DNA of 64,000 nucleotides from the NCBI GenBank assembly GCA_035653615.1, contig DASRBN010000007.1, forward strand, positions 62,001 to 126,000. Direction: 5' to 3'. The translations under genes and the position numbers were made by a program. Of this stretch, positions 7,846 to 43,966 are shown piece after piece. How positions within the stretch are numbered: the first letter of the stretch is position 1; each line of letters opens with the position of its first letter. The notes under the pieces are model-generated. The model saw only the letters and a program-made list of their open reading frames with translations. It searched no databases and was not told where the DNA came from. Origin of the DNA: Ktedonobacteraceae bacterium (GTDB taxonomy: Bacteria > Chloroflexota > Ktedonobacteria > Ktedonobacterales > Ktedonobacteraceae).

Positions 7846-8352
7846 CTAGTCACCAGTTCCAACAGGCTCGGCAGCGCCGGTACGCATCTGCTCGGCAGCG
7901 TACTGGACTGCGCGCACAATGTTTTGATAGCCGGTGCAGCGGCAGATATTGCCCTCAAGCCCCTTGCGGATCTCTTCTTCTGTCGGATTGGGGTTATCCT
8001 TGAGCAATTGATACGAGGCCATAATCATGCCGGGCGTGCAAAAGCCACACTGCAGACCGTGCTTCTCCCAGAAACCTTCCTGGATGGGGTGCAGACTTCC
8101 CTCAGGTGCCAGTCCCTCGATGGTTGTCACTTCGCCACCATCGGCCTGTACTGCCAGCACCGTACAGGATTTGACGGTTTCGCCATTGAGTAGTACAGTG
8201 CAGGCTCCACATTGCGAGGTATCACAGCCAATGTGCGTTCCTGTAAGGTCCAGCACGTCTCGTAGATAATGAACGAGCAACAAACGGGGTTCAACCGATG
8301 AATGGTATTGCTTGCCATTCACCGTGACGGTGATTTCGCGCTTCATCGTCAT
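7846..8352 (-). CDS. Molybdenum hydroxylase [2Fe-2S] (small) subunit, CutS/CoxS-like
   Basis: 168 residues. The plant-ferredoxin-type cluster has Cys at 43, 48, 51 and 63 ([10 protein letters not shown]...C), and the second cluster has Cys at 102, 105, 137 and 139 (CGFC...CRC). Both are complete, so electron transfer should work. The frame is open to 8391, but ATG 8352 has AAGGAG eight bases upstream; ATG 8346 is an alternative. It is the first gene of the operon, 87 bases before the large subunit. No maturation genes of the CoxD/E/F type are visible within the window. Confidence 0.9.
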
Positions 8353-31238: not shown

Positions 31239-32351
31239 CTACGGCAATTGCCATACCTGTACAGTTTTATCAGCGCTCGCACTGGCAATGAATTTTCCAT
31301 CCGGCGACCATTTCGCGCTCCGGACGGTATAATAGCCATCCGGGTATGTATGACCTTCATACGTATAGATAACTCTACCTGTCATAGCATCCCAGACTTT
31401 TGGTACGAACCCGGCTCCTGCCGAGACAATCAGCTTCCCATCCGGAGACCAGTCTACCGTAAAAATTGGCTCCTCAGACCCTTGAAAGTTGAGCAAAAGT
31501 TTTCCTGTGCTGGCATTCCAGATTTGTACAGAACCGGTATTAAAATAGCCAGAAGCTATGTATTTGCCATCTGGTGACCATGCTACACACCAGGGCTCAT
31601 CATATTCACCACGAGGATCATATTTACTGGGAACGAAAACGTGATGATAAACCACAACATTCGCTCCTGTCGTCGCATCCCATGCCTGAGTGGTCTCATC
31701 TCCAGAACCGGAGACTACACGCGTACTGTCGGGAGACCATGCAACTGCTTGCACGTCAATGGAATGACCCTTATAGGCAAAAATGAGCCTCCCATCTGCC
31801 GCATCAAACACTTCCACTTCATGACCCTGATGATTATCGTCCACAACTTCTCCGGCTGCAATGTATTTTCCATTCGGAGACCAGGCCACTGCACGTAAAT
31901 AAGAGGTAGCATGACATAGAAATGCATCCCTCCCTGTTCCGGCATTCACTATCCGAACAGCCGTATCCTCTTGCGACCCTACCGCTATCAAACGGCCATC
32001 AGGCGACCATGCTACCACGTCTAAAGTTGCAGAATTTTCTTCATAGATTGAGTCACGAACTGGATTCCGGTAAGTAAAGATACGCTCCCCTGTGAAAGCG
32101 TTCCATACCTGCATGGTGCCATCATCGGAAACAGAAGCAATCTTTTTCCCATCCGGCGACCATGCCAGGGCATTTACGCGGTCACTGTGGCCAGTATAGA
32201 TCAGGGGTTTGGGATAATACAGGAAGCCGCCAACTACGCCCCCGGTGATGACTAATCCGCCTAACGCGGCTAGCAGAGTCCGGCGCGAGATACGCGCTTG
32301 ATTCGATTGTGAGTGATCCTGAGCGTCCTTCATTTTTGATTCTGTTGCCAT
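31239..32351 (-). CDS. Membrane-anchored or exported WD40 propeller protein
   Basis: 370 residues. RISRRTLLAALGG at the N-terminus looks like a twin-arginine (Tat) signal before a hydrophobic stretch. Seven WD-type repeats follow, each with WSPDGK and ending in a VW or similar pair, enough for one seven-bladed propeller. It would sit outside the membrane as an interaction platform. ATG 32351 has GGAGG seven bases upstream. It is the first gene of a two-gene operon with the orphan CydB-like protein. Confidence 0.8.
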   Translation of the reverse strand: MATESKMKDAQDHSQSNQARISRRTLLAALGGLVITGGVVGGFLYYPKPLIYTGHSDRVNALAWSPDGKKIASVSDDGTMQVWNAFTGERIFTYRNPVRDSIYEENSATLDVVAWSPDGRLIAVGSQEDTAVRIVNAGTGRDAFLCHATSYLRAVAWSPNGKYIAAGEVVDDNHQGHEVEVFDAADGRLIFAYKGHSIDVQAVAWSPDSTRVVSGSGDETTQAWDATTGANVVVYHHVFVPSKYDPRGEYDEPWCVAWSPDGKYIASGYFNTGSVQIWNASTGKLLLNFQGSEEPIFTVDWSPDGKLIVSAGAGFVPKVWDAMTGRVIYTYEGHTYPDGYYTVRSAKWSPDGKFIASASADKTVQVWQLP

Positions 32352-32683
32352 AATAAAACCTCCGGCATGTAAACGTTCAGTCAACCAGAAATTTGTTGCC
32401 GATTATGAAATTTTCATAGGCTGAACAATTGCAAAAGCCAGGGTCACTATTGATCCAGTGATGAGATTGTTACGTATGTGATAGTAGAAATCCCCGCTAT
32501 AAGGTTTCTCCAGGTGTAGTTATTGATATAATCCATGCAGAGGATAGGGACAATACAAGAATGGATAAGCAAGGGAGCCGGCATGCTCCTTGCCGGGAAA
32601 TAGGCATTTCCCTACCAGTCTAGTATTGAAAGGAAGAAACTATGTTGTGGGCTATCATAGTCATCCAATGGCGGCATATACTA
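32352..32683. other. Intergenic region downstream of the STAND gene
   Basis: About 330 AT-rich bases. It contains the promoter of the WD40 unit and two small dyads, GGGAAAT / ATTTCCC (32596-32613) and CCGGCA / TGCCGG nearby, which might end the STAND transcript. No gene. Confidence 0.45.
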
Positions 32684-35305
32684 TCAGGCATTCCGTGGTT
32701 CTGATAAGGAGGACAACCAGGCTTTCACCTGCTCTTTTATCCGGTTTCCCATAGCCTCAAACATTTGCAGGCTTTCTGCGGCCAGTCGTTGCGCTTCTTG
32801 CATGTTTCCCCGGGCGGCACTCACACGTGCCAGCCCGAATAATGTTAATGCCACCACTTCCTTGCTCCCGCCGGCAGCAACATTGCTTGCCTCTTCAAAT
32901 GCTGCATATGCGTCATTGATCCGGCCTTGTTTGAGTTGCAGTTCACCATATTCGTTCAACATCATACCAAGCATCCAGATATCGCCGATCTTATGTGCTA
33001 TTTCCAATGATTCCCGCAGGTATTGCTCAGCCTGCTCATAATGTCCCTGCTTCAGAGCCAGACTTCCCAGGGAGCCAACATTGGTGCCTACGAATCGTAT
33101 ATCATCGATACGCCGGGCTACATCAAGCGCCTCGACGATATACGATTCGGCATTGTCATACTCTCCTCGCTCCAGTGCTACCCCGCCAAGATTGGTTAAT
33201 ATGGCGCTCATAGCATCAAGAAATCCAATCTCACGCGCTAGAGCAAGGGCTTGCTGGCCATACCTTTCCGCCGCCTCATAATCCCCTCTCAGTACCGCAA
33301 TAGCATTCAAATTGATTAGTAACTGCGCCATCCCGCCACGATCGTCAAGAGCGCGCACGATGGTCAATCCCTCCAGGTTATAGGTCTCGGCATCAGCATA
33401 GTGTCCCTTGTCACTCAGGACACAGCCCAGATTTCCCAACACGTCACTGAGCAACTTCGAATCTCCGGTCTGGCGCGCTAAGTCCAGGCTTTCCCGTAGG
33501 TATGTCTCCGCCAGTTCATATGATACGCGAAAGCGATACAGTACTCCCAGCACCATCAAGATTTCGCTGAGCAGTCTGGCATCACTCCCCTTGCTCGCTA
33601 TTGCTCGTGCCTCCTGTAAGCATTGCTCTGCTTTGGCATAATTCCCCTGCTTATAGGCGACTTTCCCTTGATTAAGTAGCGCAGTAGCTAAAGCATCATC
33701 ATCGTTGAGATGGCGCGCAGCCTCTACTGCGCGTTCGATATATATTCCGGCTTCCTGAGCATGCAGACCGCGTGTGAAAAGAAAATGGAAAAGAGCATTG
33801 ACGCAGCGCACAAGGTTTTTGTCCTGACCTGTTGCATACGCGGCGTCTAAAGAGGCGAATATATTGGGCATTTCCTGATCCAGCGCATCAAAATGTCTCG
33901 CATTTTGCTCAACAAATTCCGCAAAATAGTCTGCCATGCGGGTGAACGCGTCTCTATCGTCCAGAAAAGTCCGGGCATAATCGGCAACTATCTGGTGCAG
34001 CGTATAGCGACCCGGGCCACTAACTTCAAGCAGGCCCGCATCGCTCAATGCGTCAAGCACCTCCACGGGAGCGGCGCTTACGGCGATGGCTGCTGCTTCT
34101 GAAAAGCTATTGGGCTTGGCAGGAAAGACGGAGAGCGCCCGCAAGGCCTGTTTTTCATCGTCCTCCAACTGCTGATCGCTGACAGAGAGCACTGTTTGTA
34201 AGGATAAGGGAGCAGCCGGAGCAAGATGAGGAGGACGCTCAAGAGGAGAGATAGGCTCGACGAGGCGCAAGCGCTCTTCAGCTATGTGCAATCTTTCAAG
34301 AGCTGCACGGATGCGGCGTGGTTGCCCGCTGTGCGATTGAGCGCGCAGATAGCGGCCCATCAGTGTGAGTGCGAGCGGTAATCCTCCAACAGCCTCCACC
34401 AGCTTGCGCGCGCTATCCGGTTCGTTTTTCACTACCTCGGGGGTCAGGCGAGCTAACAACGCGAAGCCATCGGCCGTACTCAATTCCTGCAAGACTATAG
34501 ATACGCCCTTATCAGCAGCAAAGTGCAAGGCGATATTGGGGAAACGGGTTGTTAAGAGGTAGGCACATCGAGAACCGCCCACCTTGAAAGCGAGCGCAGC
34601 TTCAATGCGCCATGCGTCATCGATCACAAGCAAGAGCTGTCGCTGGCCGATCACCGCTCGCAGCGTCCTCGACCAATCTTCAATACTTTTCAACTTAGCG
34701 GCCTGCTGAGCAGGAATCCCAAGCAACGTTCCCCAGTGATTAAGGGTCGCAAAGACATCGGGGGTCGGACCAAGGCCGGCCCATAATACCCCATCTTTGT
34801 AACGAGCCAGCACCTGCTCGTCATGGGCTAATTCTATAGCTAGCGTTGTTTTACCTACGCCTGGTAATCCATTGATGGCCGCCAGTACTTCTCCTTTGCC
34901 TTCGCATAGATGCTCTCGCAGCTGCGATAAGACGCCGTCTCGCCCAATTGGTTTCGCCGTATCTCCAGTGGGAGGTGGAAGCATTGGATCATAGAGCGGA
35001 ATTGCAATACCAATTGAAGGCGAAGTTCGATCATCAGAGATGGCTGGCGGAAGCCCATCACCCGTCTTCTGCGGCACCTTCGTATCCTTGTCACGGATGA
35101 GGCCAAGCTCGCGTGCATCCTTTCCAAAAAGCTCACACAGTTTCTGGCGATAGTAGGGACTTGGTGAGGCGGTGCCATGCTCCCAACGGCTCAGATAGTA
35201 GTAATCAGCGCCGATCTCATTAGCAACATATTTCTGCGACCAGCCACGTAGTTCTCTCGCTTCCTTCAGGCGCAAATTGGGTATCGCGACCGTTGACTTT
35301 TTCAT
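32684..35305 (-). CDS. HTH-NB-ARC-TPR regulator (STAND ATPase)
   Basis: 873 residues. An XRE-type helix-turn-helix (about 12-65) is followed by a NB-ARC ATPase with Walker A GLPGVGKT (146-153) and Walker B LLLVIDDAW (near 220), a winged-helix region (to about 460), and about eight TPRs (480-860). It belongs to the STAND switches that oligomerise when a signal reaches the TPRs; with an HTH in place of a toxin, it is likely a transcription regulator, though defence roles exist. It faces the APC permease gene. The promoter is probably at 35306-35400. Confidence 0.85.
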   Translation of the reverse strand: MKKSTVAIPNLRLKEARELRGWSQKYVANEIGADYYYLSRWEHGTASPSPYYRQKLCELFGKDARELGLIRDKDTKVPQKTGDGLPPAISDDRTSPSIGIAIPLYDPMLPPPTGDTAKPIGRDGVLSQLREHLCEGKGEVLAAINGLPGVGKTTLAIELAHDEQVLARYKDGVLWAGLGPTPDVFATLNHWGTLLGIPAQQAAKLKSIEDWSRTLRAVIGQRQLLLVIDDAWRIEAALAFKVGGSRCAYLLTTRFPNIALHFAADKGVSIVLQELSTADGFALLARLTPEVVKNEPDSARKLVEAVGGLPLALTLMGRYLRAQSHSGQPRRIRAALERLHIAEERLRLVEPISPLERPPHLAPAAPLSLQTVLSVSDQQLEDDEKQALRALSVFPAKPNSFSEAAAIAVSAAPVEVLDALSDAGLLEVSGPGRYTLHQIVADYARTFLDDRDAFTRMADYFAEFVEQNARHFDALDQEMPNIFASLDAAYATGQDKNLVRCVNALFHFLFTRGLHAQEAGIYIERAVEAARHLNDDDALATALLNQGKVAYKQGNYAKAEQCLQEARAIASKGSDARLLSEILMVLGVLYRFRVSYELAETYLRESLDLARQTGDSKLLSDVLGNLGCVLSDKGHYADAETYNLEGLTIVRALDDRGGMAQLLINLNAIAVLRGDYEAAERYGQQALALAREIGFLDAMSAILTNLGGVALERGEYDNAESYIVEALDVARRIDDIRFVGTNVGSLGSLALKQGHYEQAEQYLRESLEIAHKIGDIWMLGMMLNEYGELQLKQGRINDAYAAFEEASNVAAGGSKEVVALTLFGLARVSAARGNMQEAQRLAAESLQMFEAMGNRIKEQVKAWLSSLSEPRNA

Positions 35306-36987: not shown

Positions 36988-37662
36988 TTACTTGATCGCA
37001 GCAGCAAAAGAGCTATCCAGGAGACGCTCTAGAGGAAAGCGGATATCCTGAATAGAAGTGCCTTTTCGCGCCATATCTCGTAGGATGCGAGTGATATCTC
37101 CACGTGTATAGCGCGCCAGAACTGCCTGAACCAGTACCGGGTAGATTTCACGTAGTCGCGCAAGATGATACTCAATATCGTCAATGCTAATCAATTGCGC
37201 TACATGCCGAACAAGAATATCGTATATCATTTCCCTTAGTACATCAGAAGATGGTTCATCTGCCAGGGAGAGCGGAATAATATAATCATTTATTTTGACA
37301 GAAAAAACATCGGCGTCTTCAGATAGTGAAAGGACAAATTTTGGAGCAATCACACCCAGTTCATCAAATAATCTCTTCGCTAACCATGGCAAAGAAACAG
37401 AGAACTGCTCTTCAAAATTGAAACTATCCGAGCTTTCTTCGATAAGGAAAAGGGGTTGATACTTTACGGGACTGATAATCTCAATAGAATCGGCTCGCAA
37501 GCGGGCAAAAGCAAGTTCTGCGCAATCCTCTGCCGAGAAATGATACTTCTGATATCTTCCAAACAACTTCTGTAGCATGTCTCTATTTTCAGTTGAGATA
37601 CCAAGCTCTTCAAGGTACCGAAGAAAGAGCTTGAACATATTTTTCTGATTTGCGTCTTCCAT
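36988..37662 (-). CDS. FHIPEP-like protein, short (second export-gate-like domain)
   Basis: 224 residues, soluble. Residues 93-130 (LAKRLFDELGVIAPKFVLSL, then FSVKINDYIIPL) parallel the 'IR..L..ELG..PP' and following segment of FlhA's cytoplasmic domain. Residues 145-216 (LARLREIYPVLVQAVLARYT, then RILRDMARKGTSIQDIR) parallel the 'REYP-LV-EL' and 'VLQNLLRERVSIRDLRTIL' part. The membrane half of FlhA is absent. It is the last gene of the CHAT operon, nine bases after the 1231-aa gene, with AAGGAGG before its ATG. It may bind its larger partner. The family assignment is by eye. Confidence 0.6.
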   Translation of the reverse strand: MEDANQKNMFKLFLRYLEELGISTENRDMLQKLFGRYQKYHFSAEDCAELAFARLRADSIEIISPVKYQPLFLIEESSDSFNFEEQFSVSLPWLAKRLFDELGVIAPKFVLSLSEDADVFSVKINDYIIPLSLADEPSSDVLREMIYDILVRHVAQLISIDDIEYHLARLREIYPVLVQAVLARYTRGDITRILRDMARKGTSIQDIRFPLERLLDSSFAAAIK

Positions 37663-37671
37663 TTGGCCTCC

Positions 37672-40600
37672 TTAGCTAGCACTTACCTGCTTATCTAGCA
37701 CTTCTTGCCCGAGGATACCTCGTATGTACCTGGCAATCTCATCAACCTCAAGCCCCTTCTTATCTTTAAAGGCTTTGAGGATAGTGCCTAAATCAGCAAC
37801 AGATATTCGTTCCCTTACTAATCTGCGCAAGACCTGGGCCAGCCGTGCGACAGAAAGTTCATCTGGCAATGCCTCACTCATAAGCGTGCGGTATTCTTCA
37901 CCTCCCTCCTTCTTCCACTCATCCAGAGTAAACTGCACCTCTTGCGTACCCAGCAAAATATCAAGATTCGCCAGAAGAAGCTCTTCCATTTGAGAGAGGA
38001 TTACATGATATGCTTCGAGCATGCCATCCGAAGAGTTGTTGACATCAATAGTTTCCGTCACAAAAGGGGTATTGTAAAAGAGTATCTGATAACCATAGTA
38101 AGGCAAAGACAGGTTGTCACGCAATTGGATGCCGGGAACATGTACACCCATGTTTTGGTGAACACGCTTTCTCATTTCAGGTATATCAATTTTGATAACC
38201 TGCTCATTCAGAAGCCGTTCATCAATTAAGCCTAATCCTAATTCAATAGTAAGACAGCCGGCAGCAATAAATTGTGGAGTAAGTTGCTCGAAGTCCTTTT
38301 CCTTCCTAGAAGGATGCATCGTTGCCAGATAGCTATTTTTGCTGAGTTCTAATTGAGCAATGCTTAGGCCATGACGTCGTTGTGTATCTACAGCAGACTC
38401 ATTCGCCAGTAAATGTATGATTTCGCTGATTGCCAGGTAATGTTCCCGCGTAGTTATACGTGCATACACGTCTTGTATGATCTTCTGTCCCATATTATCC
38501 TGTTTAGCATCGTTATACAGTTGGAGGCTGTGATACAGGGCCTCTACTGCGTCCTCGATCTGTCCCTCGAAGGCTTTTTCGATTCCCACCTCTTTAAAAG
38601 CTCGTGCCAAGCCAATTCGGGCCTCTGGCATGAGCAGTTGTTCGTTTGAATCATAGGCTTCAACGAGCATAGAATAGTATTCAATAGCCTTATCAAATTG
38701 TTGAGTGCGTAGGGAGAGGCGAGCAGCACCCGCAAGGGAACTTACCCATTCTATACTTCCTGCTTCGAACTGGTTCTCCTCTATTGGCTGTACAAGTTCC
38801 AGAACGGCTCCGCTGTCTCGTTCCGCCTGCTCTCGCACCTGCCGCAGCTTCTTCTCTAATTCATCCCGATAGAGAGCAAGGACCTCACGAGTGTATAAGG
38901 TCTTCGCATTTTCGCGAAGATGGAATTGTTCGAACTCATTGAGATCCTGCAGGTTAGAATGAAGCTGTAATGTTAGAGCAGGGATTTGCTTTAAAGCATC
39001 CAGGCAGGCTTTTTTTGCATCGTCTATGTTTTCTAAGTTCAGGTAGCAAAACATTAAAGCAGAATAAATATCAAAATAACTTGCGGAAGCCTTTTCAATA
39101 GCTACCTGTAATATATCAATTGCATCTGTATAGTAGCCGAGTTCGTATCCTGCGTATGCACGTTTCATAAGATTGCCGGGGATATCAAGCGGCAGTCCAG
39201 GTGTGGTTTTCTTCCAGATTTGCTGAAAGTTAGCTTGAGCTTGTACATCATCTCCTAATAGACGGTATATACGTCCACGTAAGATCCAAGCGTTAAAGTG
39301 ATTTTCATCAATTGCTATGCATTGATCGAGTTGCTCTATAGCCCCTGAAAAATCTTTCTTGAGATAGAGAAGCCAGGCATATGCTAATCTTAAATCAATA
39401 GTTTTGTTGTGGTCATCTATAGATTGAAAAGCCTCACCGGCATGCTCGTCCTCAAGAAATATAAGCATTAACGCCTTCAAATACAGTAATTCTGCGGAAC
39501 CTGGTACCAGAGGCATTGTTACCAATGCACTCGTAGACCTCGAAAGACTCATATAGCAGAGGCTTAGAAGCGATAAGTATGTATCCTCGTCTGGCTGCAG
39601 AAGCACGGCACGTTCTACGTAAAAAGCCGATTTCCAGAATAGTTCTGTTTCTCCTGTGCGTCGCTCTACGGTAAATGCCTGTTGCCAAAGGCAGAAGGCA
39701 TAAATAAAATAGGCCCAGGAAAGGAAAGATGTTGAAAACCCAAGAACTTCACCATTTTCCCAAAGTTGACATGCCTGTTTAAGTTTTTCTTCTCGAACTT
39801 TCTCTTCCTCAGAACTCAGTGGTGAATCCTCTGTGGCGGAAAAAGCAAGAGCCGCACAGCAGTAGAGGTAGGATAGCGCATGCTCCGGCCTAAGCTCTAT
39901 TGCCTTCTTCAGACCAGCTTCAGCTTCAGTATACAACTGCTGATTATAAAAAAGTATGCCTGCTTCATAGTAGTGGCTGGCCGCCTGCTCTGCCTCAGGT
40001 TGAGAAAGGTCAAGGCCTTTATTACGTACAGATGCAACCAGTATATCCCCTCTTAATTGCTGGGCAGGGGCCTCAAGTTTACTGGCTGCTATCAGGAATT
40101 GTAACTCGAAAGCGCGTTTGATCTCCTGTTCTGCCTGTTGATAGTACGTGATTTCAGAATCGTGCGAGAATGTAAAATAGAGTTGTGCGCGAAAGTAATG
40201 CATTCTTGCATCATTTTCACGCACGCTAAAAGAAGCCGATTGAATACGCTCTATGAGCGTCTCTTCCTTGCCGTCCTCTCGGTACGTCTCTAGCAGCCTG
40301 AGCCCTTGAGCAAGATCGATGTTGCCCTCGATCAGTGCCTGCGCCTGGTAAAAGAGTATATCGCCGTTTGAGGGATTGCGCTGCAATGCCTCATTTGTTG
40401 CACTCACTGCCTGTTCATGCTCTCCTAGTGCAATATAAGCCTGGGCGCAGAGAAGATATGGTTCGCAATCCGTTGGACGACTTTCGGCTGCCGACTTCGC
40501 AGCGATAAGTGCTTCTTGTGGTTCGCCAAGCGCAAGATGACAGAGGCCACCGACCATCAAAAATTCATAGGCAAACGGCATATTCGTCATGATATCAGCA

Positions 40601-41367
40601 GGCATGTAAGATAAAGCATTTTTATACTGACCTGCGGCCGCAAGAGCCTGTACGAGTTTGGCATTCGTTGGTATCAGTCGATCAGATTGCTCTACCTGTC
40701 TTGCCAGTTCATAGGCTTTGCGCAAAATATTCACTGCGCGCTCAGTTTTACCACTGCGCCACAGTGCCTGCCCAAGCCCCTCAAGCACTCGTACATCACC
40801 CGGCATTTCGCGCTGAGCTTGCTCAAAGTCGTCTACAGCGGCATCATACATACGCAAATGCAAATGCACCCGTCCTATAAATTGATTTATACTGTTGAGT
40901 TGCTTCTGGTCAAGTCCGGGACTGGTACGTATCGCTATCCATTCATGCAATAGCCATTCGCTTTCCGCACGCACAATCCCTCTTTTCCTGGTAATCAGCC
41001 CGTGTGCCCGCTCCAGTAACAAATTAGCGTGCTGTGGTTCCTGTAAAGCAGCTTCGAGATAGGCATGGAAAGCAGCCTGTATATCTTCATTTTTTTCATA
41101 TGCTGCCGCCAGATAGACATAAACTTCCCAGTCCGGTATAGTAGAAGAGTCTTTATCTTCCTGCAAAGCCTGGTTAAAAGTGATGATAGCTTCTCCGGCT
41201 CGCGCCGGCAATGCATCTAACAAAGCTCTTCCACAATCGAAATAAAGGTTGCGCAACGAAGCCGGCTCAGCATAACGTCCTGGCAACACCAGTTCTTTAT
41301 GCAGTTGACGAGAATAGGAAGAATGTTCTCGCCGATTGGATAAAAATTGCTGTATGCTTTCTCTCAT
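37672..41367 (-). CDS. TPR array with C-terminal FHIPEP (FlhA cytoplasmic) domain
   Basis: 1231 residues, cytoplasmic, no membrane helix. Residues about 40-1000 are TPR/TPR-like repeats (for example VRVLEGLGQALWRSGKTERA). Residues about 1029-1225 strongly resemble the cytoplasmic domain of FlhA: CLTIELGLGLI, EMRKRVHQNMGVHVPGIQLR then DN (1083-1085 RDN), LLGTQEVQFTLDEW, and VLRRLVRERISVADLGTILK. In FlhA this part binds export substrates and chaperones; here it would act as a soluble docking or assembly domain. Start and stop are coupled: ATGA overlap with CHAT, nine bases to the next gene. No flagellar genes are nearby. Confidence 0.75.
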   Translation of the reverse strand: MRESIQQFLSNRREHSSYSRQLHKELVLPGRYAEPASLRNLYFDCGRALLDALPARAGEAIITFNQALQEDKDSSTIPDWEVYVYLAAAYEKNEDIQAAFHAYLEAALQEPQHANLLLERAHGLITRKRGIVRAESEWLLHEWIAIRTSPGLDQKQLNSINQFIGRVHLHLRMYDAAVDDFEQAQREMPGDVRVLEGLGQALWRSGKTERAVNILRKAYELARQVEQSDRLIPTNAKLVQALAAAGQYKNALSYMPADIMTNMPFAYEFLMVGGLCHLALGEPQEALIAAKSAAESRPTDCEPYLLCAQAYIALGEHEQAVSATNEALQRNPSNGDILFYQAQALIEGNIDLAQGLRLLETYREDGKEETLIERIQSASFSVRENDARMHYFRAQLYFTFSHDSEITYYQQAEQEIKRAFELQFLIAASKLEAPAQQLRGDILVASVRNKGLDLSQPEAEQAASHYYEAGILFYNQQLYTEAEAGLKKAIELRPEHALSYLYCCAALAFSATEDSPLSSEEEKVREEKLKQACQLWENGEVLGFSTSFLSWAYFIYAFCLWQQAFTVERRTGETELFWKSAFYVERAVLLQPDEDTYLSLLSLCYMSLSRSTSALVTMPLVPGSAELLYLKALMLIFLEDEHAGEAFQSIDDHNKTIDLRLAYAWLLYLKKDFSGAIEQLDQCIAIDENHFNAWILRGRIYRLLGDDVQAQANFQQIWKKTTPGLPLDIPGNLMKRAYAGYELGYYTDAIDILQVAIEKASASYFDIYSALMFCYLNLENIDDAKKACLDALKQIPALTLQLHSNLQDLNEFEQFHLRENAKTLYTREVLALYRDELEKKLRQVREQAERDSGAVLELVQPIEENQFEAGSIEWVSSLAGAARLSLRTQQFDKAIEYYSMLVEAYDSNEQLLMPEARIGLARAFKEVGIEKAFEGQIEDAVEALYHSLQLYNDAKQDNMGQKIIQDVYARITTREHYLAISEIIHLLANESAVDTQRRHGLSIAQLELSKNSYLATMHPSRKEKDFEQLTPQFIAAGCLTIELGLGLIDERLLNEQVIKIDIPEMRKRVHQNMGVHVPGIQLRDNLSLPYYGYQILFYNTPFVTETIDVNNSSDGMLEAYHVILSQMEELLLANLDILLGTQEVQFTLDEWKKEGGEEYRTLMSEALPDELSVARLAQVLRRLVRERISVADLGTILKAFKDKKGLEVDEIARYIRGILGQEVLDKQVSAS

Positions 41368-42911
41368 AGCGGTCCTGTTTTTCCCGTTCTGCTAAAACTA
41401 TCTGTCGAGACTGTATCTGCAGGAAGAGGGGGTAATGCCAGAGGAGTTGGGGGAAAACAATATGGACAGAAGCGAGCTTTCTCATTCTTAAGAGTAGTTA
41501 TTATAGGTCTTTTACACTTACTACAAAAGAAAGGCGTCCCACATTCAACGCATCCCGTCACGCCTGCTTCATAAAAAGCATGGCATCGCGGGCAATAGCC
41601 GGAATCGGGTGTGCCGATAAATTGGTTAGAATTCTCAGAAAGGCTACCCTCATTAGTGTTTGGGGTTGAACGCTGCTTTTGCTTAGGTGGCAGCAAAATG
41701 CTATCGTTGCTGCGTAAGTAGAGCACTGGCAAACCGAATGCCTTGCTTACAGACCAGTCTCCCAGATCTTGCAGCAGTTTCTCTCTACCTTGTAATACTG
41801 CTGCTTCTATCGCCCTTGATTCAAGCAGTGCCGTATAAAACTCTTTTGCGAAGCGGTTACTTTCTTTGTTTGAAATTTTTGATTGCATCGCCACTACAGC
41901 AGGGATATTTTCAGCTGCAAGTCTGCTAGCAATACCAGAAATAGCTCTGTAGGGATTGGCTATTTTACCACCAACGCCACTTTCGCAGGCCTGTAAAAAT
42001 ACCAGTCGCACTTCCTTTATCCCCTTGAGTTCTCTGGCTATGGCTTCTTGATTAATCCAATGAGCGCTATGAGACTCATCAGCGGTTAAAAACGCTATTT
42101 CTCCCTTGTCTTTCTCAAAACGACCATGGCCAACAAAATGAATAATATTGGGTCTATAGGTAGCAACAAGCGTCTTAAAAGCTTGCCATGTGGCAAAACC
42201 GCGCCTGAGTTTATCATTATCTACCCCATTTTGTACATCTTCTTCATTATTGGCGATCAGGAGAGGTTCTAATAAATCAATTTTACTTCTGATAGGCTCT
42301 TCATTGAACATTTCAAAAAGGATCGCACTTTGTACTCTACTGAGTTGCGGTTCATCAGGGCTTGCCTTGGGGCTTGCGCAAACAAATAATACCCTTGGTT
42401 TGTCCCTATCTTTGATCAACAGGTCACGCTTGTTCTCCCCCTTACGTAAAAAGAGGCGCCGGGTAAGAACTAATTGTGTGACCTCAGACAAAAACATCTG
42501 CTGCTGCCAGCAATAAAGATATTCCCAGGGCCAGCTTAGAAATTCTAATTTATCGCTGTTTATGCCATACTCATCCTCTTCAAACTCAAGCTCAAGACGC
42601 AATATAGCACCTTCTTGCTTGTCAAAACCGGATTTTTCTGAAATGATGCGATTAATCAGGTCCCCAACCGGATTGTTTAGCAAGAATTCGTATAAATTCG
42701 CGCCCAGGGTACGAAATTCATCCTCTTCAAGCAACCGGCCTTCACGAAATATCTTTGAAAGTGTGGTAATTGTGTCCCATTGAACAGCGGAAGCTGGTTT
42801 CAAATAGGCGGTTGGAAAACCTATATCACGATTCAATGTGTGCTGAGTAGTGATCTTTCTATCAATGCCAACAGTTACTTTGAACAGTTGGACATTATCC
42901 TCTTCTTGCAT
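41364..42911 (-). CDS. CHAT-domain protease with C-terminal tandem zinc ribbons
   Basis: 515 residues. The CHAT domain (about 170-400) has the catalytic dyad His262 (in IIHFVGHGRFE) and Cys309 (in VRLVFLQACESG), as in caspase-like proteases. An N-terminal region of about 160 residues is of unknown fold. After a Ser/Asn linker, eight Cys at 440, 443, 454, 457, 463, 466, 482 and 485 form two probable zinc ribbons. It would cleave proteins after activation. It is the second gene of the operon, 20 bases after the 310-aa gene, and overlaps the TPR-FHIPEP gene by four bases (ATGA). The TPR protein is the obvious partner. Confidence 0.85.
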   Translation of the reverse strand: MQEEDNVQLFKVTVGIDRKITTQHTLNRDIGFPTAYLKPASAVQWDTITTLSKIFREGRLLEEDEFRTLGANLYEFLLNNPVGDLINRIISEKSGFDKQEGAILRLELEFEEDEYGINSDKLEFLSWPWEYLYCWQQQMFLSEVTQLVLTRRLFLRKGENKRDLLIKDRDKPRVLFVCASPKASPDEPQLSRVQSAILFEMFNEEPIRSKIDLLEPLLIANNEEDVQNGVDNDKLRRGFATWQAFKTLVATYRPNIIHFVGHGRFEKDKGEIAFLTADESHSAHWINQEAIARELKGIKEVRLVFLQACESGVGGKIANPYRAISGIASRLAAENIPAVVAMQSKISNKESNRFAKEFYTALLESRAIEAAVLQGREKLLQDLGDWSVSKAFGLPVLYLRSNDSILLPPKQKQRSTPNTNEGSLSENSNQFIGTPDSGYCPRCHAFYEAGVTGCVECGTPFFCSKCKRPIITTLKNEKARFCPYCFPPTPLALPPLPADTVSTDSFSRTGKTGPL

Positions 42912-42931: not shown

Positions 42932-43864
42932 TTACAAGAAGCGTGTCATATCCCATGGACTATCTTCCGGGGTTTTTACATGAATAGGAGCACCTTTTTG
43001 AAACAGTTCCCTGAATTTCGCCGGCAGATCCTCGATTGCCTCACGTAGATTGGCAGGCGCATATTTAAAAGAACGCGCTACATCCATCTCGCCTCTGATC
43101 TTGAATTCTCGGGTGCCTTTCGGTACCTGAACAATCACAGAAAGTAATGGCCGGTGTTCGCGCGAGAATTCCTTTCCATGCAGTTCCCACCATACCTTTT
43201 CTAACATGGGAGGAGCATGCGTAATTTTATCGGCCTTAAGGGATAAAATATGAGGCGGAATTTCGAATCCGAGACTAAGATTATTTTTTGTACCCACTCC
43301 CGCCGAAAGATCAGTGATGATAGGCAGAGGTGCCGTAGCTGCTGGTATATGAATACTGGGAAGCTGAGCAACCAGGTTCAAATTCGCATCAAGTCCTACC
43401 TGGGCCTGAGCATGAACTTTCATATATTCGACAAACTGCTCGTCTGGAAAAATTTGATACGCCTTGGGGCGCGTACCATCTTTAGGAGCATACGGATTAA
43501 ACTCGATGTCAACCCTTATCTGATTAAAAGCCCACTTTGTTTTCGGATGCAGGTTGATCGTAATATCCAACCAGTAGAAATCATTGCGCGCGGCAAGTTG
43601 TTTGAAGCTATAGGGTACCGTCTTATCCGGCAATTGAAGAAAATACTGTTCAGTAATCTTATACATGGTGGGGATATCGGCAAACTCCGCCTCATCATCG
43701 GCAAATGCCCGTATCTGCTGAGCTGCAACACTTTCAGCTTTTGTACTATCACCGGGCCCCAGGTGGTTTTCGAGATCATCAAGCCGCTCGGCGGCTTCAA
43801 GCAGCAAAGAGCGCCGATCTAATCCCCTACTATAGCTAAAATCAGGAGGGTTATCAATCACCAT
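42932..43864 (-). CDS. Unknown 310-residue protein, first gene of the CHAT operon
   Basis: 310 residues, soluble. I recognise no family. Parts look beta-rich (YWLDITINLHP, IRVDIEFNPYAP, LLSVIVQVPKGTREF), and the sequence carries a helical N-terminus (residues 15-60) with a weak coiled-coil pattern. The product precedes CHAT by 20 bases and is therefore presumably a sensor or cleavage target of the system. ATG 43864 is preceded by GAGGTGA with almost no spacing; GTG 43861 is an alternative start. A -10/-35 pair lies upstream. Confidence 0.65.
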   Translation of the reverse strand: MVIDNPPDFSYSRGLDRRSLLLEAAERLDDLENHLGPGDSTKAESVAAQQIRAFADDEAEFADIPTMYKITEQYFLQLPDKTVPYSFKQLAARNDFYWLDITINLHPKTKWAFNQIRVDIEFNPYAPKDGTRPKAYQIFPDEQFVEYMKVHAQAQVGLDANLNLVAQLPSIHIPAATAPLPIITDLSAGVGTKNNLSLGFEIPPHILSLKADKITHAPPMLEKVWWELHGKEFSREHRPLLSVIVQVPKGTREFKIRGEMDVARSFKYAPANLREAIEDLPAKFRELFQKGAPIHVKTPEDSPWDMTRFL

Positions 43865-43936: not shown

Positions 43937-43966
43937 ACTATACAATAGATCATATTTCATTGTCAA
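43937..43966 (-). promoter_or_regulatory. Promoter of the CHAT operon
   Basis: Reading leftward: -35 TTGACA (43966-43961), an 18-base spacer and -10 TATAGT (43942-43937), about 72 bases before the first start codon. The surroundings are very AT-rich. Confidence 0.7.

Follow-up and report, generated by a model that had tools for sequence, protein, structure and literature searches.

The window, a stretch of 64,000 nucleotides from a Ktedonobacteraceae genome, carries on its minus strand a co-directional operon of four genes. In order, they encode a CHAT-partner protein, a CHAT protease, a fusion of a TPR array with an FlhA/SctV-type cytoplasmic domain (FlhA_C), and a short FlhA_C protein. The genes are spaced by 20, -4 and 9 bases.

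43937-43966, minus strand: promoter-like TTGACA-18-TATAGT, lying 73 bases upstream of the operon's first gene
42932-43864, minus strand: CHAT-partner protein, 310 aa; relatives adjoin CHAT genes in other genomes
41364-42911, minus strand: CHAT (caspase-like) protease, 515 aa; Pfam CHAT PF12770, E=3.2e-18
37672-41367, minus strand: TPR array and FlhA_C fusion, 1231 aa; open reading frame with Pfam TPR and FHIPEP matches
38224-38244, minus strand: motif ELGLGLI of the fusion
38113-38175, minus strand: motif MRKRVHQNMGVHVPGIQLRDN of the fusion
37933-37956, minus strand: motif LLGTQEVQ of the fusion
37774-37821, minus strand: motif LVRERISVADLGTILK of the fusion
38047-38271, minus strand: N-terminal half of SD1 in the fusion, residues 1033-1107; custom HMM i-E 1.8e-9, Pfam profile 314-405
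38020-38046, minus strand: 9-residue bridge replacing SD2; the profile position goes from 445 to 496 between protein residues 1107 and 1117
37696-38019, minus strand: C-terminal part of SD1 and SD3 in the fusion, residues 1117-1224; i-E 1.1e-13, Pfam profile 451-562
36988-37662, minus strand: short FlhA_C protein, 224 aa; Pfam FHIPEP match, relative in genome G046, structural model

The CHAT protease gene overlaps the TPR-FlhA_C gene by 4 bases on its upstream side, and the short FlhA_C gene starts 9 bases downstream of the fusion gene. The protease has both residues of the catalytic dyad, His262 in an HG motif and Cys309 in a QAC motif, and ends in zinc-ribbon-like CxxC motifs; judged from its sequence it looks intact, and proteolytic activity is predicted. 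The 310-aa partner matched no Pfam family. The idea that it is a gasdermin found no support: a profile of three relatives returned nothing credible in the PDB. The promoter-like sequence is the best of 14 matches, with 12.5 expected by chance, and is only suggestive of a promoter of the operon. MoxR AAA+ and vWA genes were absent in a Pfam scan of the four operon proteins and their neighbours, and none of the defence-system models compared with the operon fits it, except for weak CHAT models. Near the operon lies the gene of a STAND-type regulator with HTH, NB-ARC and TPR regions (873 aa, 32684-35305, minus strand), separated from it by an amino-acid permease gene; the gene at 31239-32384 on the minus strand encodes a WD40 protein, a beta-propeller with about seven repeats.

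The fusion protein consists of a long TPR array followed, in its last ~200 residues, by the FlhA/SctV-type cytoplasmic domain. The original prediction had read these last 200 residues as FlhA-like from the order of four motifs and had proposed a profile comparison with FHIPEP (PF00771). All four motifs are found in their expected places in the reading frame, and two stretches of the region together match FHIPEP at E=2.1e-22, with 79.8 bits where the cut-off is 29.1. Among NCBIfam models, FlhA (E=1.2e-20) and SctV (E=1.4e-13) both match. A custom HMM of 107 proteins (34 FlhA from Chloroflexota and 73 SctV, mostly chlamydial) scores the fusion C-terminus at 69.5 bits, against 4.7 bits for the best of 1000 shuffles. 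On this sequence evidence, the C-terminus of the fusion is a true homologue of the FlhA/SctV cytoplasmic domain. Whether the domain is of flagellar or injectisome type cannot be confidently separated: FlhA models score better for the fusion and SctV models for its relative, and in the tree P0006C and P0004 are grouped (0.98) and the fusion's domain joins FlhA. The tree branches are very long, so that the domain may derive from either FlhA or SctV. A structural model of the fusion C-terminus, built from 35 sequences, gave no fold match at E<=0.001 (CdsV ranked second, E 3.4), and VIA listed no FlhA/SctV entries for it; with a pLDDT of only 52.7, the fold search with this model is uninformative.

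The two matching stretches delimit a deletion. In the custom HMM alignment, fusion residues 1033-1107 correspond to profile positions 367-445 and residues 1117-1224 to positions 496-600, so that ~50 profile columns are replaced by 9 residues. In YscV, SD1 spans 372-438 and 493-513, SD2 439-492, SD3 514-600 and SD4 601-704, SD2 being an insertion within SD1 (PMC9163089). The stretch skipped in the fusion agrees with the limits of SD2. The loss of SD2 corresponds to the shortened segment between the RDN and LLG motifs remarked on in the original prediction, which measures 56 residues against medians of 96 in FlhA and 98 in SctV. The custom HMM found no SD4, and the chain ends just past SD3. Neither Pfam nor the custom HMM produced a match to the N-terminal membrane domain of FlhA outside the cytoplasmic part of the fusion, and the protein has no transmembrane segment, its hydropathy peaking at 1.69, where a true FlhA reaches 3.13.

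The domain recurs in the next gene. The original prediction rightly identified the domain in the fusion and overlooked both this second FlhA_C gene downstream and the CHAT-centred operon. The short protein has the layout of the fusion domain (SD1 without SD2, then SD3, no SD4) behind N-terminal helices; residues 1-60 form a helical part without a clear match. Its FHIPEP match (E=2.8e-6) lies just below Pfam's cut-off, and it shares 31% identity with the FlhA_C protein of G046 (E=6e-13). The AlphaFold model has a pLDDT of 71.9, with ~73-94 per ten-residue block over residues 91-220. The best PDB matches of this model in Foldseek are FlhA/SctV cytoplasmic domains, with E-values down to 2e-5, and VIA returned 22 FlhA/SctV entries at Z 8.9-11.1, the next unrelated entry scoring 4.7. 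Against YscV (7qij), the model covers chain residues 391-577 with 134 residues aligned, which is what the absence of the 54-residue SD2 would give. Since the alignment behind the model contained SctV sequences, the fold match supports homology rather than proving it independently.

Of the hallmarks of the FlhA/SctV family, the cytoplasmic SD1/SD3 profile is present in the window proteins, and the membrane domain, SD2, SD4 and the genomic partners are absent. The host genome (95% complete, 44 contigs) contains no match to FliP/SctR, control searches being positive, and a Pfam FHIPEP search of it found no full-length FlhA or other FHIPEP protein besides the two window proteins. In a genome without FliP and without a full FlhA, these proteins are not an export gate; the homology of their SD1-SD3 core to FlhA/SctV stands, and the export-gate role does not. 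A relic, left when a flagellar or type III secretion gene decayed and was joined by chance to a TPR gene, would explain the truncation of the domain and accords with the flagellar-type FlhA carried by fellow members of the order (G002, G003, G005, G006). Yet both frames are intact and lie in a tight operon, SD2 has been lost at approximately the domain limits, the arrangement occurs in a second genus and FliP is absent; we regard decay as the least probable of the explanations considered, close to negligible. It is also very improbable that FlhA_C serves as a decoy or guard, mimicking something that effectors of phages or competitors act on, and tripping CHAT when attacked. A domain copied from a widespread machine, stripped down and placed where a sensor would sit, would suit such a role, but the host lacks an export apparatus that could be mimicked, and the exposed docking surfaces, SD2 and SD4, are gone.

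The set was found in 2 of the 47 genomes surveyed in the class Ktedonobacteria: the host and G046, a member of the same family, Ktedonobacteraceae, in a different genus. On contig CATPCK010000908.1 of G046 the order is the same, with a first gene followed by CHAT, TPR and FlhA_C genes, and this CHAT protein is the closest to the window CHAT among the 47 genomes. The G046 FlhA_C protein (523 aa) keeps SD1, SD3 and SD4 and again lacks SD2. A second SD1-SD3 unit, seen by eye in its N-terminal 200 residues, received no support from HMM and hhalign comparisons. After a frame change, the TPR gene of G046 runs into an SD4 piece near 7985 (profile 662-699; Pfam E=9e-4), so that FlhA_C parts occur both in the TPR protein and in its neighbour in each of the two genomes, though not split in the same way. 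Several frame changes interrupt the CHAT and TPR genes of G046 (L041, G046:C908, 7832-10628, unmended MAG sequence), through either sequencing error or decay. The first gene of G046 (P0008, L041 10676-11851), before the CHAT gene, encodes a 391-aa protein without a Pfam family; it is not detectably related to the window partner and has no relative in the 46 other class genomes. It is possibly an exchangeable effector or substrate.

By phylum, the FHIPEP profile was sampled in Chloroflexota, and among 400 genomes nearly all other matches are full-length or contig-cut flagellar-type FlhA. Assembled genome contigs yielded the G046 contig and further hits; 41 of these were examined, and they are SctV proteins of chlamydial type, either complete or cut off by a contig end. 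From plasmids and phages came SctV/FlhA proteins or no match at all, and pattern scans of viral contigs found no such FlhA_C arrangement.

Relatives of the other half of the operon occur elsewhere. Distant relatives of the 310-aa partner, whose family apparently has no Pfam name, directly adjoin CHAT genes in Anabaena cylindrica (plasmid pANACY.03), Planktothrix agardhii and G025. In G025, a Ktedonobacter-type genome from the same family as the host, a 298-aa partner-family protein stands with a CHAT gene (L150 3820-6732) and no FlhA_C gene follows; this CHAT protein has a CxxC zinc-ribbon-like tail and, close to the C-terminal end, a hydrophobic segment. In Anabaena (L145 5818-11891), partner-family and CHAT genes are accompanied by iSTAND, MoxR-type AAA, vWA and formylglycine-generating enzyme genes, and the CHAT protein has a weak EAD9-like tail. 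The composition of the Anabaena neighbourhood resembles that of the iSTAND ternary conflict systems described by Kaur et al. (PMC7159879). The partner and CHAT pairs tie the core of the window operon to this conflict-system network. As the pairs elsewhere lack FlhA_C, the window operon looks like a partner and CHAT core with added TPR-FlhA_C and FlhA_C.

These neighbourhoods also bear on a more ordinary role, in which CHAT, scaffolded by FlhA_C, would control development or division in a bacterium that grows as multicellular filaments. Ktedonobacteria form filaments, and HetF is a CHAT-domain protein. HetF is described as a component of the divisome in a filamentous cyanobacterium (PMC8406250). 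Set against this are the patchy distribution of the set and the position of the core relatives beside MoxR, vWA and iSTAND genes, and we consider regulation of this kind rather unlikely.

The cytoplasmic domain of an export gate assembles into a ring of nine, onto which chaperone-substrate pairs dock; the nonamer is reported to require SD3 together with SD4, and chaperones bind in the cleft between SD2 and SD4 (PMC9163089). The window proteins lack the chaperone cleft and have the SD1-SD3 core, and the most economical inference is that assembly has been retained. We tentatively favour the explanation, at a little under an even chance, that a CHAT-protease operon took over the docking domain of a type III export gate as a soluble module, whose SD1-SD3 scaffold controls the protease. 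Starting from the homology of both proteins, the operon, the losses, the fusion and the recurrence, this explanation proposes an assembly, an activation and a role in defence. The SD1-SD3 core, which in export gates contributes to the packing of subunits in the nine-fold ring, would let TPR-FlhA_C and the short FlhA_C assemble with each other, and the TPR array would hold the CHAT protease, a trigger protein or both. A signal would change the assembly, bring CHAT subunits together and switch the protease on; activated CHAT would then cleave a target, perhaps the partner protein encoded by the first gene. In outline this would resemble a caspase-activating platform and serve in conflict, either against phages or in cell death. 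Without SD4, which both window proteins lack, a classical ring may not form; this is the chief objection to one. The rarity of the set also counts against the explanation: it is seen in two genomes only, one of them a MAG with several frame changes, and the first genes are not detectably related. So does the comparison with defence-system models, of which only weak CHAT models fit.

The main rival to the scaffold explanation is a docking receptor, in which FlhA_C would recognise a helical or chaperone-bound protein, for example from phage or foreign secretion, and then activate CHAT. Gates bind chaperone:substrate pairs that include the TPR chaperone SctY (PMC9163089), here TPR and gate are combined in one chain, and the G046 copies keep SD4; the chaperone-binding SD2-SD4 cleft is, however, missing from both window proteins, and we judge such a receptor possible and distinctly less probable than the scaffold. 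About as probable as the receptor is a more far-reaching reading, in which the ring domain of a type III export gate, converted twice in one operon, would serve a caspase-like protease of an immune system as its platform for oligomerisation. FlhA_C would there replace the AAA+/STAND NTPases, giving an NTPase-free, secretion-derived counterpart of the apoptosome.

FlhA and SctV are otherwise known from secretion machinery; a soluble form of their docking domain next to a CHAT protease, in a genome lacking FliP and a full FlhA, would be, as far as our searches show, the first case of its reuse outside secretion. A full-text literature search, with most subscription papers outside its coverage, found no description of FlhA/FHIPEP in an arrangement with CHAT, TPR or a conflict system. 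The window proteins share with FlhA/SctV (FHIPEP, PF00771) the SD1/SD3 motifs and, in the short protein, the predicted fold; they differ in lacking the membrane domain, SD2 and SD4, in the TPR fusion and in belonging to a genome without FliP. As a natural SD2-less and SD4-less version, the pair is useful for testing the SD1-SD3 core alone. SctV-SctX-SctY likewise combines a TPR protein with an SctV-type domain, but SctY binds the SD2-SD4 cleft missing here, and the window has TPR and gate in one chain; TPRs are ubiquitous, and the parallel is therefore only a lead. Craspase TPR-CHAT (Csx29) also pairs a TPR array with a CHAT protease, whereas in the window TPR and CHAT are on separate proteins, the operon has no CRISPR effector, and Craspase has no counterpart of FlhA_C. 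With the CHAT conflict systems of multicellular bacteria (vWA-MoxR, iSTAND, VMAP; PMC7159879), the operon shares CHAT and a conserved partner gene. In place of their MoxR, vWA, STAND and EAD components it carries TPR-FlhA_C and FlhA_C, possibly a new kind of control module for CHAT conflict systems.
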